From positions 1 through 64,000 of the forward strand of contig JACJNZ010000058.1 in the NCBI GenBank assembly GCA_014695325.1: a stretch of 64,000 nt of DNA, written 5' to 3'. The notes beneath the pieces were generated by a model. That model was not told where the DNA came from and did not search any database. It was given only the letters and a program-made list of their open reading frames with translations. Positions within the stretch are counted from its first letter, which is position 1; each line of letters opens with the position of its first letter. The position numbers and the translations under genes are program-made. This stretch comes from Cyanobacteria bacterium FACHB-502. GTDB lineage: Bacteria > Cyanobacteriota > Cyanobacteriia > Elainellales > Elainellaceae. Below are positions 2,566 through 6,540 of this stretch, piece after piece.

Positions 2566-3309
2566 ATGATGCTCAAAAAAAGATTTGCGCTGCTTCAGTT
2601 TGCCATTGCTGGGCTGTGCCTTACTGCTGGGCAGACAATCGCCCAGACCCTTGCCCTCCCCGACCGTCTGATTGCGTTTAACTCGCCGCAGGGTGAAGCT
2701 CTGCTGATAGAGAGTGCCGCCAGACAGGATTTTTGGAATCTCAGCTCGCAGTTTGTGACGCAGGTGAATCAGGCCTATTGTGGCGTTGCCAGTATGGTGA
2801 TGATCCTGAATAGTCTGGGCATTCCCGCTCCGATCGCCCCTCAGTATGAACCCTATCGCGTTTTCACGCAGGACAATTTTTTTGACAGTGAAGCCGCCCG
2901 ACAGGTGATCGCGCCTGAAGTGGTGCAGCGGCAGGGGCTGACCCTGGAAGAACTGGGAAAACTGCTCGAGAGCTACTCGGTGCAAGCCAAGGTTCACCAT
3001 GCAGGCGATACGTCGCTGGAAGAGTTTCGCAGGCTGGCGATCGAAAACCTCAATCAGCCGCAGAACTATATTCTGATTAACTATTTGCGTCGAGAAATTG
3101 GGCAGGAGCGAGGTGGGCACATTTCCCCGATCGCGGCCTATCATGCGGAAACCGATCGCTTTTTGATTCTGGATGTTGCCCGCTACAAATATCCTCCCGT
3201 TTGGGTGAGAGCCGATGAGCTTTGGCGATCGATGGACACGCTGGATACAACTTCAGGAAAAACCAGAGGCTTTGTTCTGGTCAGCCGAGGTCTGGTCGGT
3301 CGAGAATAA
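2566..3309 (+). CDS. Phytochelatin-synthase-like cysteine peptidase
   Basis: This is a 247-residue prokaryotic phytochelatin synthase (papain-like clan CA) of the type characterised from Nostoc. It carries only the catalytic half of the plant enzyme, without the Cys-rich C-terminal domain. Such proteins cleave glycine from glutathione and make phytochelatin only weakly. The triad is visible: Cys72 in QAYCGVASM, His185 in GGHISPI and Asp203 in LDVARYKYPPVW. Residues 1 to about 27 form a signal peptide (basic start, hydrophobic core, AQT end), so it should act in the periplasm. The gene follows the acetyltransferase closely and ends two bases from the convergent exonuclease-ATPase gene. A role in glutathione turnover or metal tolerance is inferred from the family. 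Confidence 0.9.
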   Translation: MMLKKRFALLQFAIAGLCLTAGQTIAQTLALPDRLIAFNSPQGEALLIESAARQDFWNLSSQFVTQVNQAYCGVASMVMILNSLGIPAPIAPQYEPYRVFTQDNFFDSEAARQVIAPEVVQRQGLTLEELGKLLESYSVQAKVHHAGDTSLEEFRRLAIENLNQPQNYILINYLRREIGQERGGHISPIAAYHAETDRFLILDVARYKYPPVWVRADELWRSMDTLDTTSGKTRGFVLVSRGLVGRE

Positions 3310-3311
3310 TT

Positions 3312-5819
3312 TCAGTTCAGCGATCGCTCAGGCTGAAAAAGCTGAATCAGCCAGTTATCTTTTAACTCGTCCGTCACGACTTCCAGTGCGGCAAGCAAAT
3401 CAACGTCTAAATCTCGGTTTTGAATATCGATCACGAGCTTGTACAGCAGCTCAAAATCAATCCGATCGTTTTCCTCCATCAGTCGATATTCACCATTCGC
3501 CGCATTGTTCAACTTCTCGATTTCTTCGCGTCCTACTTTGCCTGTAATCGGTGGCTGTCGCCCATCACGCCATAGAAGAAACCGAGTGTCTTTGTGGCTG
3601 ACAACTAATTCGTTGAAGTTTTTCAAACGGCTCGTGAATCCGCTGCCGTCGATTTGCAGAAATCCGATCGCCACCTTCTTAAGCTCAGACTGAAAAACAC
3701 GATTTTCAGGCAATTTAGACTTACCTAATCGAAGACAGTCAATTTCAAAGGGCTGGATGAGCTGAAAAGCTTCGGCGATCGTCGTGAGTTTGCCAATATC
3801 GTCGCTGTCCGTAATAATTTGCAGTTTGTCATAGTCCTGCAAAAGTTCCGGTCTCTGCGATTTCAGATAGTCTAAAACCTGTCGTGTGGCATCAAGACGG
3901 ACAATGAGAGTTTCATCAGAGCGATGAGCATTTCCATTCTGATAATGAGTGTTTTGATGAGGGTTGAACTCAGTATTCAGAAACGGCTGAAAAACGGGAG
4001 TCTCTCCATTTGTTTCTGTGCTGTAGATTGAGCCTAATCCGGTTGCGATCGCCTGAATTGCTTGCCGAAATTTGCTGAGCTCCTGCTCCAAGCGATCGAG
4101 TCGCTGTTCCGTAGAAATCGGGAATTCGGGGGAAGGATAGGATTCCGAAAATTCCTGAGCCGATCGCGGTAGGGGAATTCCGCGTGCCTTGTAGCGATAG
4201 TAGTCTGCTGCTCGATTCAGGGCGGCTCGAATCGGACGATGACTGAGAATTTGCTGAAGTTCTCCTGATGTAAATAGCTTTTCTAAATCAATGCCGATCG
4301 CCCTCACTTTAAGCTGCAAAATTTCCTTGATCTGCTGATTAGTTGGAGCTTCTAGAAAGACTTTGTGCTGCGAAATGCGATCGATCACTGAACCATCGAA
4401 AAAGGTTTGAAACTGCTGCCAGCGATCGGGAAACAGATTGAGAATAATCAAACTATTCGGAACGTAGGTAAAGATTTCTTTGACGGCTTCGCCAAATCGT
4501 TCCAGCAGATTTCGATTGCATTCCAGTCCTAATCCCTCAAGCTGATCAAATACAATGATTAGCGGTTCATCGAGCAGAGAAAGCTTGCTAAATACTGAGA
4601 TTGCTTCTAATGAGAAATCCTCTTTGCTGAAGTCTGCGCTCCAGTTTTCTAAGCCGATTGATTCCGCATCTTCGCGCTCTAGCTCGTGAGCAACTAACCA
4701 GCGTGTTGCTAATTCTTTGCGTCGTGGTTCGGTATAGCTGCAAAATTTGATGATGCCTTTAATAATCTGCGCCGAGTAGCCCGATAACCCATATTGGCTT
4801 GTCCACCATTCATTGGTGCGTCGCTCAATATGCTGCCAGAGTTTGCGCTTCAAATCGGTTCCTTCTTTCGCCAAACTATAAAGCGCAAGCGGATTTTCTC
4901 CAATTCTCGAAAGAATGATTTCATCGTTATTGCTTTGCTGGGAAGTTGCCTGAAGAATTCTAACAAAGCTGTGTGCTAACAAATTCTCAAGCTGGGTAAA
5001 GCCATTTCCTGGAACAGTTTCGACAAACGATTTGAGAATGCGCGTGTAGATGTGATAGAGAACACTATCGGGATTATTCGGCTGACCGATAAACAGCAGA
5101 CGATTCACCTGCAACAGCTCTTTTGCCAATCGCATGATCAAGTGCGTTTTGCCCGTTCCCGGTTCCCCGATCACTACGGCTCCCTGGCTCTGATGATTGC
5201 GATCGTCTCGGATATCATCGATCGTTGCCTTTAGCAATTCAAACTCATCCTGATAAATTTGCTTCAGGTCAGGATGGTCTTGAAAAGGATTATCAACCTT
5301 GCTGCTGCTAAAGGGATTCGGTTTATCTTTCAACGCCTTTTTCAGGGAGGACTGCGACTTCAGTTCCATAAGTTTCAGATAGAGCTGATAGGTAAATTCG
5401 GCATCGTAGCGGGCAGAGTGGGCTTGTTGGGGATTGAAGTATTTCTGGTTAACTTTTAAGTTTAATCGCTTACTTAAGTATTCGAGTGAGTAGCTGGGTA
5501 AATCGGGCAGATAATGCTGAGCCAGTTCATAAGTACAGCTAAACTGAATTTTCCTCCAGGTTAGTCCTGCTTTCCGACAGCTTTGCCGTAGAACCTGAAT
5601 ATCGTGATTTGCGGAGTGAAAAATCACCTGCTTTTGCTTTGCGAAATCAAAAAAGCAGGGCAGTATTGCCTGAAGCGGCTGTTTTTTAAGCTGGGTTTCT
5701 GTGTAGTCTGGATGGGCTGCGTCAAAAGCTTCGTAAACGAGCTGTCCTTCGCTGTTCAAAATCGCAATTTCGCGAACGATCTCGCTTCCCTCCGTGTCTA
5801 CGACAATAAACTCTTTCAC
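3312..5819 (-). CDS. DEDDh exonuclease - P-loop ATPase fusion protein
   Basis: The first 155 residues form a DnaQ-like 3'-5' exonuclease. ExoI is VVDTEGSE (Asp8, Glu10), ExoII is HSANHDIQVL (Asp73) and ExoIII is HSARYDAEF (His134, Asp139), the full DEDDh set. A short linker leads to a P-loop ATPase with Walker A GEPGTGKT at 218-225 and Walker B LIIVFDQLEGLG (Asp425) within a region resembling Orc1/Cdc6-type or STAND-like ATPases. Then comes a predicted coiled coil (about 575-600), a low-complexity linker and a C-terminal domain of about 200 residues that I cannot assign. There is no membrane segment or signal peptide. The gene stands alone on its strand between convergent and divergent neighbours. 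A role in DNA repair, replication or defence is inference from the domain pairing only. Confidence 0.85.
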   Translation of the reverse strand: MKEFIVVDTEGSEIVREIAILNSEGQLVYEAFDAAHPDYTETQLKKQPLQAILPCFFDFAKQKQVIFHSANHDIQVLRQSCRKAGLTWRKIQFSCTYELAQHYLPDLPSYSLEYLSKRLNLKVNQKYFNPQQAHSARYDAEFTYQLYLKLMELKSQSSLKKALKDKPNPFSSSKVDNPFQDHPDLKQIYQDEFELLKATIDDIRDDRNHQSQGAVVIGEPGTGKTHLIMRLAKELLQVNRLLFIGQPNNPDSVLYHIYTRILKSFVETVPGNGFTQLENLLAHSFVRILQATSQQSNNDEIILSRIGENPLALYSLAKEGTDLKRKLWQHIERRTNEWWTSQYGLSGYSAQIIKGIIKFCSYTEPRRKELATRWLVAHELEREDAESIGLENWSADFSKEDFSLEAISVFSKLSLLDEPLIIVFDQLEGLGLECNRNLLERFGEAVKEIFTYVPNSLIILNLFPDRWQQFQTFFDGSVIDRISQHKVFLEAPTNQQIKEILQLKVRAIGIDLEKLFTSGELQQILSHRPIRAALNRAADYYRYKARGIPLPRSAQEFSESYPSPEFPISTEQRLDRLEQELSKFRQAIQAIATGLGSIYSTETNGETPVFQPFLNTEFNPHQNTHYQNGNAHRSDETLIVRLDATRQVLDYLKSQRPELLQDYDKLQIITDSDDIGKLTTIAEAFQLIQPFEIDCLRLGKSKLPENRVFQSELKKVAIGFLQIDGSGFTSRLKNFNELVVSHKDTRFLLWRDGRQPPITGKVGREEIEKLNNAANGEYRLMEENDRIDFELLYKLVIDIQNRDLDVDLLAALEVVTDELKDNWLIQLFQPERSLN

Positions 5820-5955
5820 AGGTTTCTTTCACAGGTTGGCAATAGCTCGAATCAATCGAAGATTCATTTACACGCAAAGTTCTGTAGAGCGCGTACTCAG
5901 AGACTTACTGTAGAAGGTGGAATAGATTTCAGCAGTTATTTGTCTACTTCCCTTT

Positions 5956-6540
5956 ATGGCTAAAGTCTTCGATCGCATCACTGACGATTTACAAAAATTT
6001 ATTCACGCGCAGCAAATCTTTTTCGTGGCGACTGCGCCCTTGAGCCCCGCTGGACACATCAATCTTTCACCCAAGGGGCTGGATAGCTTTCGCATTCTTT
6101 CACCCAATCGCGTTGCCTACCTTGACCTCACCGGAAGCGGTAACGAAACTTCTGCTCATCTAGCAGAAAATCAGCGAATTACGTTTATGTTCTGCGCTTT
6201 TCAAGGCAAGCCTTTAATCCTGCGGCTATATGGTCAGGGACGAGTGCTGACGCCGGATGCCCTCGACTGGCACACCCAGGCTGACTTGTTTCCCACGATT
6301 CCCGGAACCCGACAAATTATCATCGCCGAAATCGATCGCGTTCAGACTTCCTGCGGTACGGGCGTTCCGCTCTATGAGTTTGAGGGGCAGCGATCAGACA
6401 TGGTGGAATGGGCGCAAAAGAAAGGCGATCGGGGCATGTGGGACTACTGGCAGCTTAAAAATCAAATCAGCGTAGACGGTCTACCCACCCCGCTTGCAGG
6501 ATGGATGGAGCGTAGCCAGCAGGAGATTGGCGGGAATTAG
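5956..6540 (+). CDS. Pyridoxamine 5'-phosphate oxidase-fold flavin-binding protein
   Basis: The 194-residue protein resembles the FMN-binding split-barrel family (PNPOx-like). Supporting segments are the early IFFVATAPLSPAGHINLSPKG, in which a small reactive pocket follows the first strands, and YLDLTGSGNETSAHLAENQRITFMFCAF, the barrel core typical of this group. The substrate is unknown; related proteins bind FMN or F420 and act as reductases or oxidases on small molecules. There is no signal peptide, so it is cytoplasmic. It is divergently placed from the exonuclease-ATPase gene with 136 bases between them and converges on the phosphoesterase gene. Assignment to the fold is solid, the reaction is not. 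Confidence 0.85.
   Translation: MAKVFDRITDDLQKFIHAQQIFFVATAPLSPAGHINLSPKGLDSFRILSPNRVAYLDLTGSGNETSAHLAENQRITFMFCAFQGKPLILRLYGQGRVLTPDALDWHTQADLFPTIPGTRQIIIAEIDRVQTSCGTGVPLYEFEGQRSDMVEWAQKKGDRGMWDYWQLKNQISVDGLPTPLAGWMERSQQEIGGN

Follow-up and report, generated by a model that had tools for sequence, protein, structure and literature searches.

What is the role of a gene that joins a predicted 3'-5' exonuclease to an initiator-type ATPase in a single polypeptide, and that stands without a partner gene? The question is raised by a minus-strand gene in positions 1 to 64,000 of contig JACJNZ010000058.1 of Cyanobacteria bacterium FACHB-502 (assembly GCA_014695325.1), a 64,000-nucleotide stretch referred to here as the window. 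An earlier note on this stretch had described the product as a DEDDh exonuclease fused to an Orc1/Cdc6- or STAND-like ATPase and an unassigned C-terminal domain (CTD), and had proposed that the ATPase loads or regulates the nuclease on damaged or foreign DNA. We find that the gene represents a real family without a name, the exonuclease-ATPase-CTD proteins, and we consider the chances about even that its members are stand-alone, accessory, ATP-gated 3'-5' DNA exonucleases built from an AAA+/CTD core and a nuclease module.

Thirty-two other open reading frames (ORFs) align with the window ORF over most of its length at about 40-78% identity, and by sequence the similarity among the relatives is far beyond chance. 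The alignment of 33 cyanobacterial ORFs counts the window ORF, omits a copy that is broken into two ORFs (genome G366) and includes one, L072, that ends at a contig edge. A broader set of 54 rows consists of 53 of 80 listed relatives plus the window protein, 42 with the exonuclease and 12 without it. Judged by codon comparison, the protein is under purifying selection, with ratios of nonsynonymous to synonymous change against a same-genus relative that are lowest in the ATPase (0.03), higher in the CTD (0.07) and highest in the exonuclease (0.14), the synonymous divergence being saturated at 1.5-2.3. The AlphaFold2 model of the whole protein, made with 54 sequences, has a mean predicted local distance difference test score (pLDDT) of 86.5. 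The features of the gene are collected in the table.

Table. Features of the exonuclease-ATPase-CTD gene, in window coordinates
Feature	Residues	Position	Strand	Basis or remark
Whole gene: DEDDh exonuclease, AAA+ ATPase, coiled coil, CTD	1-835	3312..5819	minus	835 aa, GTG start
DEDDh 3'-5' exonuclease domain	1-163	5331..5819	minus	Pfam RNase_T; fold match; D8, E10, D73, H134, D139
AAA+ ATPase of ORC/Cdc6 type	166-556	4152..5324	minus	AAA_16; fold matches to 2qby and 7ufi
Walker A, GEPGTGKT	218-225	5145..5168	minus	K224 in 33/33 ORFs and 54/54 rows
Long all-helical stretch between ATPase strands 2 and 3	250-414	4578..5072	minus	Model; W339, C360, Y362, W374 invariant
Walker B Asp425 (FDQLEGL)	425	4545..4547	minus	D425 in 33/33 ORFs; FDQLE (424-428) in 54/54 rows
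Long helix, probable coiled coil	570-598	4026..4112	minus	AlphaFold2 model
Disordered linker	599-633	3921..4025	minus	pLDDT under 50
CTD	636-835	3315..3914	minus	Model of CTD alone, pLDDT 95
Divergent intergenic region, promoter probably within		5820..5955		Sigma-70-like site not found there by scan

The exonuclease domain carries the hallmarks of the DEDDh group, namely four acidic residues, a histidine five positions before the last aspartate and the DEDD fold. Pfam RNase_T matches residues 3-147 above its cut-off (E 4.6e-9), and the five residues are invariant in all 33 aligned cyanobacterial ORFs; among the 42 exonuclease-bearing rows D8, D73 and H134 are found in every one, E10 and D139 in 41 each. 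The complete DEDDh motifs, Walker A and Walker B Asp425 that the earlier note had read in one 835-residue chain are confirmed by the Pfam matches and by this identity across 33 of 33 ORFs. Structure comparison with VIA placed the PolC exonuclease first (Z 17.4, root-mean-square deviation (rmsd) 2.4, 151 residues aligned), with DnaQ (Z 16.8) and epsilon (Z 16.6) in further rows, and because these best rows are DNA enzymes they support a DNA substrate. PADLOC gave partial matches to DEDDh over residues 39-147 (2.9e-14) and to PDC-S48 over residues 62-167 (8.4e-8). By its residues the domain is intact, and 3'-5' exonuclease activity is predicted. PolC, DnaQ and RNase T share the DEDDh fold and all five residues but are proofreading or RNA/DNA-end enzymes without the ATPase and CTD seen here.

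The second part of the chain is matched by Pfam AAA_16 over residues 192-428 (E 3e-8, above the cut-off). In VIA comparisons the ATPase model aligned with Sulfolobus Orc1/Cdc6 (2qby; Z 14.8, rmsd 3.1, 241 residues), Vibrio cholerae TnsC (7ufi; Z 14.8, rmsd 3.9, 252 residues) and Cdc6 (1fnn; Z 14.4, rmsd 3.2, 243 residues), and the Walker A, Walker B and AAA+ core align to ORC/Cdc6. K224, D425, E428, R481 and R531 are present in all 54 rows and N461 in 52; R481 directly precedes strand 5 (residues 485-489) and R531 lies in the helical lid bundle (494-546). Their positions in the model suggest N461 as sensor 1, R481 as the arginine finger and R531 as sensor 2. The likeness to ORC/Cdc6 and TnsC covers the AAA+ fold over about residues 163-556 (Z of about 14-15) and, by position, the sensor, finger and lid residues; the focal protein differs in its N-terminal exonuclease, in the helical stretch between strands 2 and 3 and in an unrelated CTD. 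By its place after strand 2, that stretch might correspond to the HEH insert of ORC/Cdc6-clade ATPases. Orc1/Cdc6 initiators proper have a winged-helix DNA-binding domain after the lid; none is apparent in the model, which has the long helix, the disordered linker and the CTD there instead.

The earlier note had left the ATPase as either Orc1/Cdc6- or STAND-like. A STAND-type switch, resembling that of nucleotide-binding leucine-rich repeat receptors, would use the exonuclease as effector and the CTD as sensor, and weak matches to nSTAND_NTPase5, nSTAND1 and nSTAND3 do occur in the focal protein and its relatives, but they fall under the gathering cut-offs (23.0 vs 34, 15.8 vs 27.1 and 15.1 vs 27.2 bits in the focal protein). 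We favour an Orc1/Cdc6-type ATPase because of the invariant lid arginine R531, the invariant arginine R481 before strand 5 and the ORC/Cdc6 and TnsC structural rows. Beyond the lid the model shows no evident winged helix or repeat array, and no STAND protein was noticed among the 50 best VIA-align rows listed, an absence that does not by itself dispose of STAND. The Orc1/Cdc6 half of the earlier assignment is thereby strengthened and the STAND half disfavoured, and we regard a STAND-type switch as improbable.

The Orc1/Cdc6-type ATPase also has a sequence link (E 5e-15) to a cyanobacterial ATPase, L083, that is itself above the Pfam BrxC_BrxD cut-off (27.9 vs 22.2 bits). BrxC and BrxD of BREX systems are likewise ORC/Cdc6-clade AAA+ proteins in a genome-conflict setting, linked through that relative; the focal protein, by contrast, has no BrxC_BrxD Pfam match up to E 1, carries an exonuclease and shows no recurrent partner gene. 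Cyanobacterial ATPases of 621-756 aa without an exonuclease (L080-L086, L083 among them) share about 23-26% identity with the ATPase part and end in C-terminal regions that have no assignment.

The order of a coiled coil followed by a domain without assignment, as the earlier note had it, agrees with the long helix and folded CTD of the model and with the Pfam search, in which no family was matched by more than 3 of the 54 members and the best match (E 0.0014) is not convincing. No PDB sequence match to the CTD was found. By VIA, SfsA came first (Z 6.0, rmsd 3.9, 111 residues aligned), with XisH-type proteins at 5.8 and BspD6I at 5.6, and many of the leading rows are by name PD-(D/E)XK enzymes or their relatives, others not. 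The PD-(D/E)XK core fold runs alpha-beta-beta-beta-alpha-beta, and its nucleases carry the catalytic motif PD...(D/E)xK. The element order of the CTD fits this fold, at a weak structural match (best Z 6.0), and no (D/E)xK was found on strand 3 in the 54 rows, positions 717-720 being hydrophobic or small. An active PD-(D/E)XK nuclease is rejected, the catalytic motif being absent; the model suggests that the CTD is perhaps a degenerate PD-(D/E)XK-like fold. With SfsA, XisH, BspD6I, EndoMS and Can2 it shares strand-helix order in weak matches (Z 5-6), and it differs from them in lacking (D/E)xK and in having its own conserved positions, a DxDDxGK motif at 671-677 (D 49, D 49, D 52, G 54 and K 53 of 54), R731-N734-N736 and R751-D752 (each residue in 53/54); P704 and R786 are found in all 54. 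A degenerate phospholipase D (PLD) half was considered from the likeness of a GSxFTSRxxNFNEL segment to the PLD motif GSxN...N.E and is unsupported, no PLD fold having been noticed in the 50 best rows of each PDB listing. A viral structure library gave four matches to the CTD at E up to 0.001, the best an uncharacterised Salmonella phage protein (1.8e-4) and another a DNA mismatch endonuclease.

Natural relatives without the exonuclease bear on which part of the protein is central. These short forms begin at about residue 163-168 and keep the ATPase and CTD, and the Walker, finger and sensor motifs are intact in all 12 exonuclease-free rows. No separate exonuclease ORF was found in short-form loci; two loci of another kind, L143 and L162, hold the gene in pieces. 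In a midpoint-rooted tree of the ATPase and CTD, nine gammaproteobacterial short forms (mostly Thiotrichaceae) and two from Xenococcaceae form separate clades, each with support 100/100, and the exonuclease was likely lost at least twice. Two short rows may be cut off or frameshifted, since L144 starts 50 bases and L146, one of the nine, 115 bases from a contig end, and the argument does not lean on them; the late-starting L097, L115, L117, L150 and L151 were left out of the count. Whole-genome searches of 13 chosen genomes of unstated completeness found both forms in five, the short form alone in two (both Xenococcaceae) and the long form alone in six. The five long/short pairs come from giant-sulfur-bacterium genomes (L093/L145, L094/L146, L096/L140, L103/L156 and L107/L147), and two of them involve a match with one in-frame stop. 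Among the 42 long rows, exonuclease and ATPase distances co-vary (r 0.74; none of 2000 permutations as high), which argues that the exonuclease was probably inherited together with the core, not swapped. The AAA+/CTD core seems able to persist alone, and on these comparisons the best reading is of a conserved core device that carries the nuclease as a detachable module.

The gene is patchily distributed. Counting the window genome, it was found in 5 of 36 genomes of the source family and in 30 of 386 cyanobacterial genomes sampled phylum-wide, a survey in which scoring was limited to the two top candidates of each genome. A profile of the CTD alone recovered the same 30 genomes and one 44-residue scrap, and within the 386 genomes the CTD was found solely within the focal architecture; the contig of the Thiomargarita nelsonii homologue also holds a detached CTD-like piece in a 125-aa frame. 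A first scan of species genomes with the single protein as query returned no relatives; a later scan with two peptide patterns from the alignment, run over 84,980 species genomes, returned 112. The 80 of these that are listed, from which the taxonomy outside the surveys is drawn, comprise cyanobacteria, gammaproteobacteria (mostly Thiotrichaceae, and including Thiomargarita, Parabeggiatoa and Thioploca), one Desulfobulbaceae metagenome-assembled genome (MAG) and one Campylobacterales MAG; many relatives are MAGs, and lone odd placements could be binning errors. Filamentous cyanobacteria are said to be the exchange partners of Beggiatoaceae. That Beggiatoaceae have exchanged genes with a phylogenetically remote lineage has already been published (PMC5108060, PMC6390638).

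Nine plasmid records match the protein, seven of them over at least 80% of its length. On a Tolypothrix plasmid (L169:8059-14448) genes for DUF87 and NurA lie just upstream of the homologue, on a 33 kb plasmid of S. elongatus PCC 11801 (L170:11992-15958) the homologue is directly upstream of TIR-domain and macro-domain genes, and in another plasmid context a helicase and a PLD family protein are nearby. No phage or viral homologue was found in phage and viral searches. The source genome of 6.6 Mb has a single match, and with 0.455 the focal gene has the lowest guanine-cytosine (GC) content of 19 window genes measured, the remainder ranging from 0.478 to 0.557. In two relatives that lack the gene, G009 (96% complete) and G014 (77%), an aldolase and a PPOX-like gene that flank the locus in the window are separated by 414 and 838 bp; the 22 gene-lacking genomes with a PPOX-like gene had no aldolase within the 1.5 kb examined in 20 cases. 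Because the gene occurs in only 5 of 36 family genomes, has the lowest GC content, is missing between adjoining neighbours in two relatives and has plasmid copies, it is probably accessory and horizontally moving. Two copies are disrupted: in Mojavia pulchra (L162:7474-11866) the exonuclease and ATPase ORFs are separated by ORFs of 332 and 283 aa, perhaps an inserted element, and the homologue of genome G366 (L079:8366-10734) is broken into two overlapping ORFs.

That the gene is single, as the earlier note supposed, is upheld by its neighbourhoods. Neighbour clustering and a look at the two closest genes per side gave no recurrent partner, only lineage-specific synteny and broad superfamilies. 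The clusters included a PPOX-like gene at 7 loci, a glycogen debranching enzyme at 7 and acetate kinase at 5, counts that are inflated because some genomes enter both as a named and as an unnamed copy. The PPOX-like gene lies less than 600 bp from the focal gene in all five carrier genomes of the source family; in other lineages the recurrent neighbours are lineage-specific and mostly housekeeping. No recurrent BREX-type neighbour (BrxC, PglX, PglZ) was noticed in the neighbour clusters or among the two closest genes per side, and the PADLOC lists cover 25 families of each set.

These neighbourhoods are one of the tests of a single-protein anti-phage or anti-plasmid defence, in which the AAA+/CTD part would be the sensor of foreign DNA or of a protein of the invader, and the DEDDh domain the effector that degrades invading or host DNA. 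PADLOC assigned 132 families to 119 genes beside 20 homologues (the top one in 3 genes), 107 to a control of 120 genes taken at random places in those 20 genomes (top one in 2) and 74 to 120 flanking genes of 68 named loci (top one in 4). The comparison counts families, not genes, with 25 of the 132, 107 and 74 listed respectively, and many of the names listed suggest generic helicases, kinases, reverse transcriptases or TnpB-like proteins. The sets omit genes of at least 1200 aa (at least 1000 aa in the 120-gene flanking set) and focal-locus ORFs open at an end, and the flanking set further omits 10 duplicate named loci, genes under 100 aa and genes 2500 or more bases away. In this coarse comparison, whose focal list runs a little longer than that of the control, no clear excess of defence models beside the gene was seen.

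The patchy presence across several phyla speaks for defence, as do the plasmid copies, some of them beside the DUF87 and NurA, helicase and PLD or TIR and macro-domain genes. GmrSD matches in 4 of the 120 flanking genes point the same way, probably at least three of them from related Nostocales loci of one neighbour cluster, and the ATPase part has weak partial PADLOC matches to mad8 (residues 211-337, 1.5e-5) and Avs2 (0.0045). Against it stand the mostly housekeeping recurrent neighbours, the lack of a clear PADLOC excess and the failure of phage and viral searches to yield a homologue. The PADLOC matches found are partial, no model spans the whole protein, and no locus examined was noticed to have another effector where the exonuclease would sit. 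For the earlier anti-phage proposal the neighbourhoods give no clear support, and patchiness and plasmid copies leave it room; we hold defence to be a possibility that falls well short of likely. A 1049-aa protein at L055:5446-8592, which carries a CHASE2 domain as well as three TIR stretches, adjoins a homologue.

A slightly stronger, still tentative, case can be made for DNA repair or replication-fork end processing, by analogy with the exonuclease-helicase DinG of Staphylococcus aureus (SaDinG; PDB 8zef, 9ii8). SaDinG resembles the focal protein in that a DEDDh 3'-5' exonuclease at its N-terminus is followed, in one fusion, by an ATP-dependent DNA module, and it supplies the two best Foldseek rows, with TM-scores of 0.15-0.17 over the whole chain. 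A passage of PMC12345164 states that its exonuclease and helicase are both required for crosslink repair and are both inhibited by high ATP. The conserved architecture, the purifying selection and the gene's standing alone also suit repair. On the other side, with presence in 30 of 386 sampled cyanobacteria it is not a core repair function, and DinG is a superfamily 2 helicase, not an ORC/Cdc6-type AAA+ protein with an unnamed CTD. Of the two candidate roles, repair or replication-end processing seems to us a little more probable than immunity against phages or plasmids, and they are nearly tied.

Under our preferred reading, an ATP-gated DNA exonuclease, ATP-bound subunits of the ORC/Cdc6 clade would assemble on DNA as an oligomer through a trans-acting R481, with the lid arginine R531 forming part of the same AAA+ module. 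The CTD, perhaps a catalytically dead restriction-endonuclease-like fold, would pick the site or partner, and the assembly would position the exonuclease on 3' ends or release it there. The N-terminal DEDDh domain, whose residues are present, would then trim 3' ends in cis. In several giant sulfur bacteria, where long and short forms coexist, the two may co-assemble. ATP-controlled loading of the nuclease is plausible on the model, and the gene would serve as an accessory, probably horizontally moving genome-protection gene.

Several observations weigh against this reading. With the whole model as query, the first ATPase rows of Foldseek include VirB4 (7e-4) and TRIP13 (1.3e-3) alongside Cdc6 (1.4e-3). 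VIA rows on the exonuclease include RNase T (Z 15-16), 3'hExo (14.7) and human ISG20 (14.5), and given this likeness RNA may be a substrate. The best PDB Foldseek value for the CTD is 4.3e-3, for an APOBEC, in a list that includes APOBEC deaminases, an African swine fever virus RNA polymerase subunit and small GTPases, and the PD-(D/E)XK likeness is weak, its best Z of 6.0 being a level that by the tool's own guide may mean no more than a shared arrangement. With a net charge of -9 in the window protein and a median of -3 across the 54 rows, the CTD is acidic, which argues against simple DNA binding by this domain; a basic DNA-binding tail is disfavoured on the same ground. Finally, the strongly conserved architecture would also fit a housekeeping repair factor.

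At the locus itself the focal gene is probably its own transcription unit, because a convergent plus-strand ORF (2566-3309) lies 2 bp from its 3' side and a divergent ORF begins at 5956 on its 5' side. Promoter and terminator scans over 3 kb gave 2 and 3 sites, not above shuffled sequence (means 3.1 and 3.1). The convergent ORF is C39-peptidase/phytochelatin-synthase-like and, with a hexapeptide acetyltransferase-like ORF at 1903-2547, lies between the aldolase-like gene and the focal gene; these window names, like that of the PPOX-like gene, were read from sequence. A Peptidase_C39_2 protein also adjoins the homologue at L088.

Each part of this nuclease-ATPase fusion is known; the libraries and literature searched did not show them combined, and the CTD is unnamed. 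No paper on an exonuclease, ORC-type ATPase and CTD architecture was noticed in the open-licence PubMed Central literature. The main text of PMC7159879, as far as consulted, contains no DEDD, RNase T, DnaQ or exonuclease, that of PMC12839542 has neither DEDD nor DnaQ and mentions 'RNase T' once, and that of PMC10907252 does not mention an exonuclease, the latter two likewise consulted in part.

An exonuclease fused to an initiator-type AAA+ in one chain would complement exonuclease-helicase fusions such as DinG. More speculatively, and in our view unlikely, the family may be a new bacterial class of genome-surveillance machine of ORC/Cdc6 type. Its AAA+/CTD core, which occurs with the exonuclease or lacking it and which in giant sulfur bacteria would combine co-assembling long and short forms, would recognise a DNA state and license exonucleolytic removal. 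If so, that state might be, for example, a DNA end in a multicopy genome, either incoming or damaged, and an initiator-like ATPase would have become a degradation loader. The natural exonuclease-free forms offer a ready separation of function for the role of the ATPase core without the nuclease, and its scattered occurrence in both cyanobacteria and giant sulfur bacteria makes this a testable accessory genome-protection gene.

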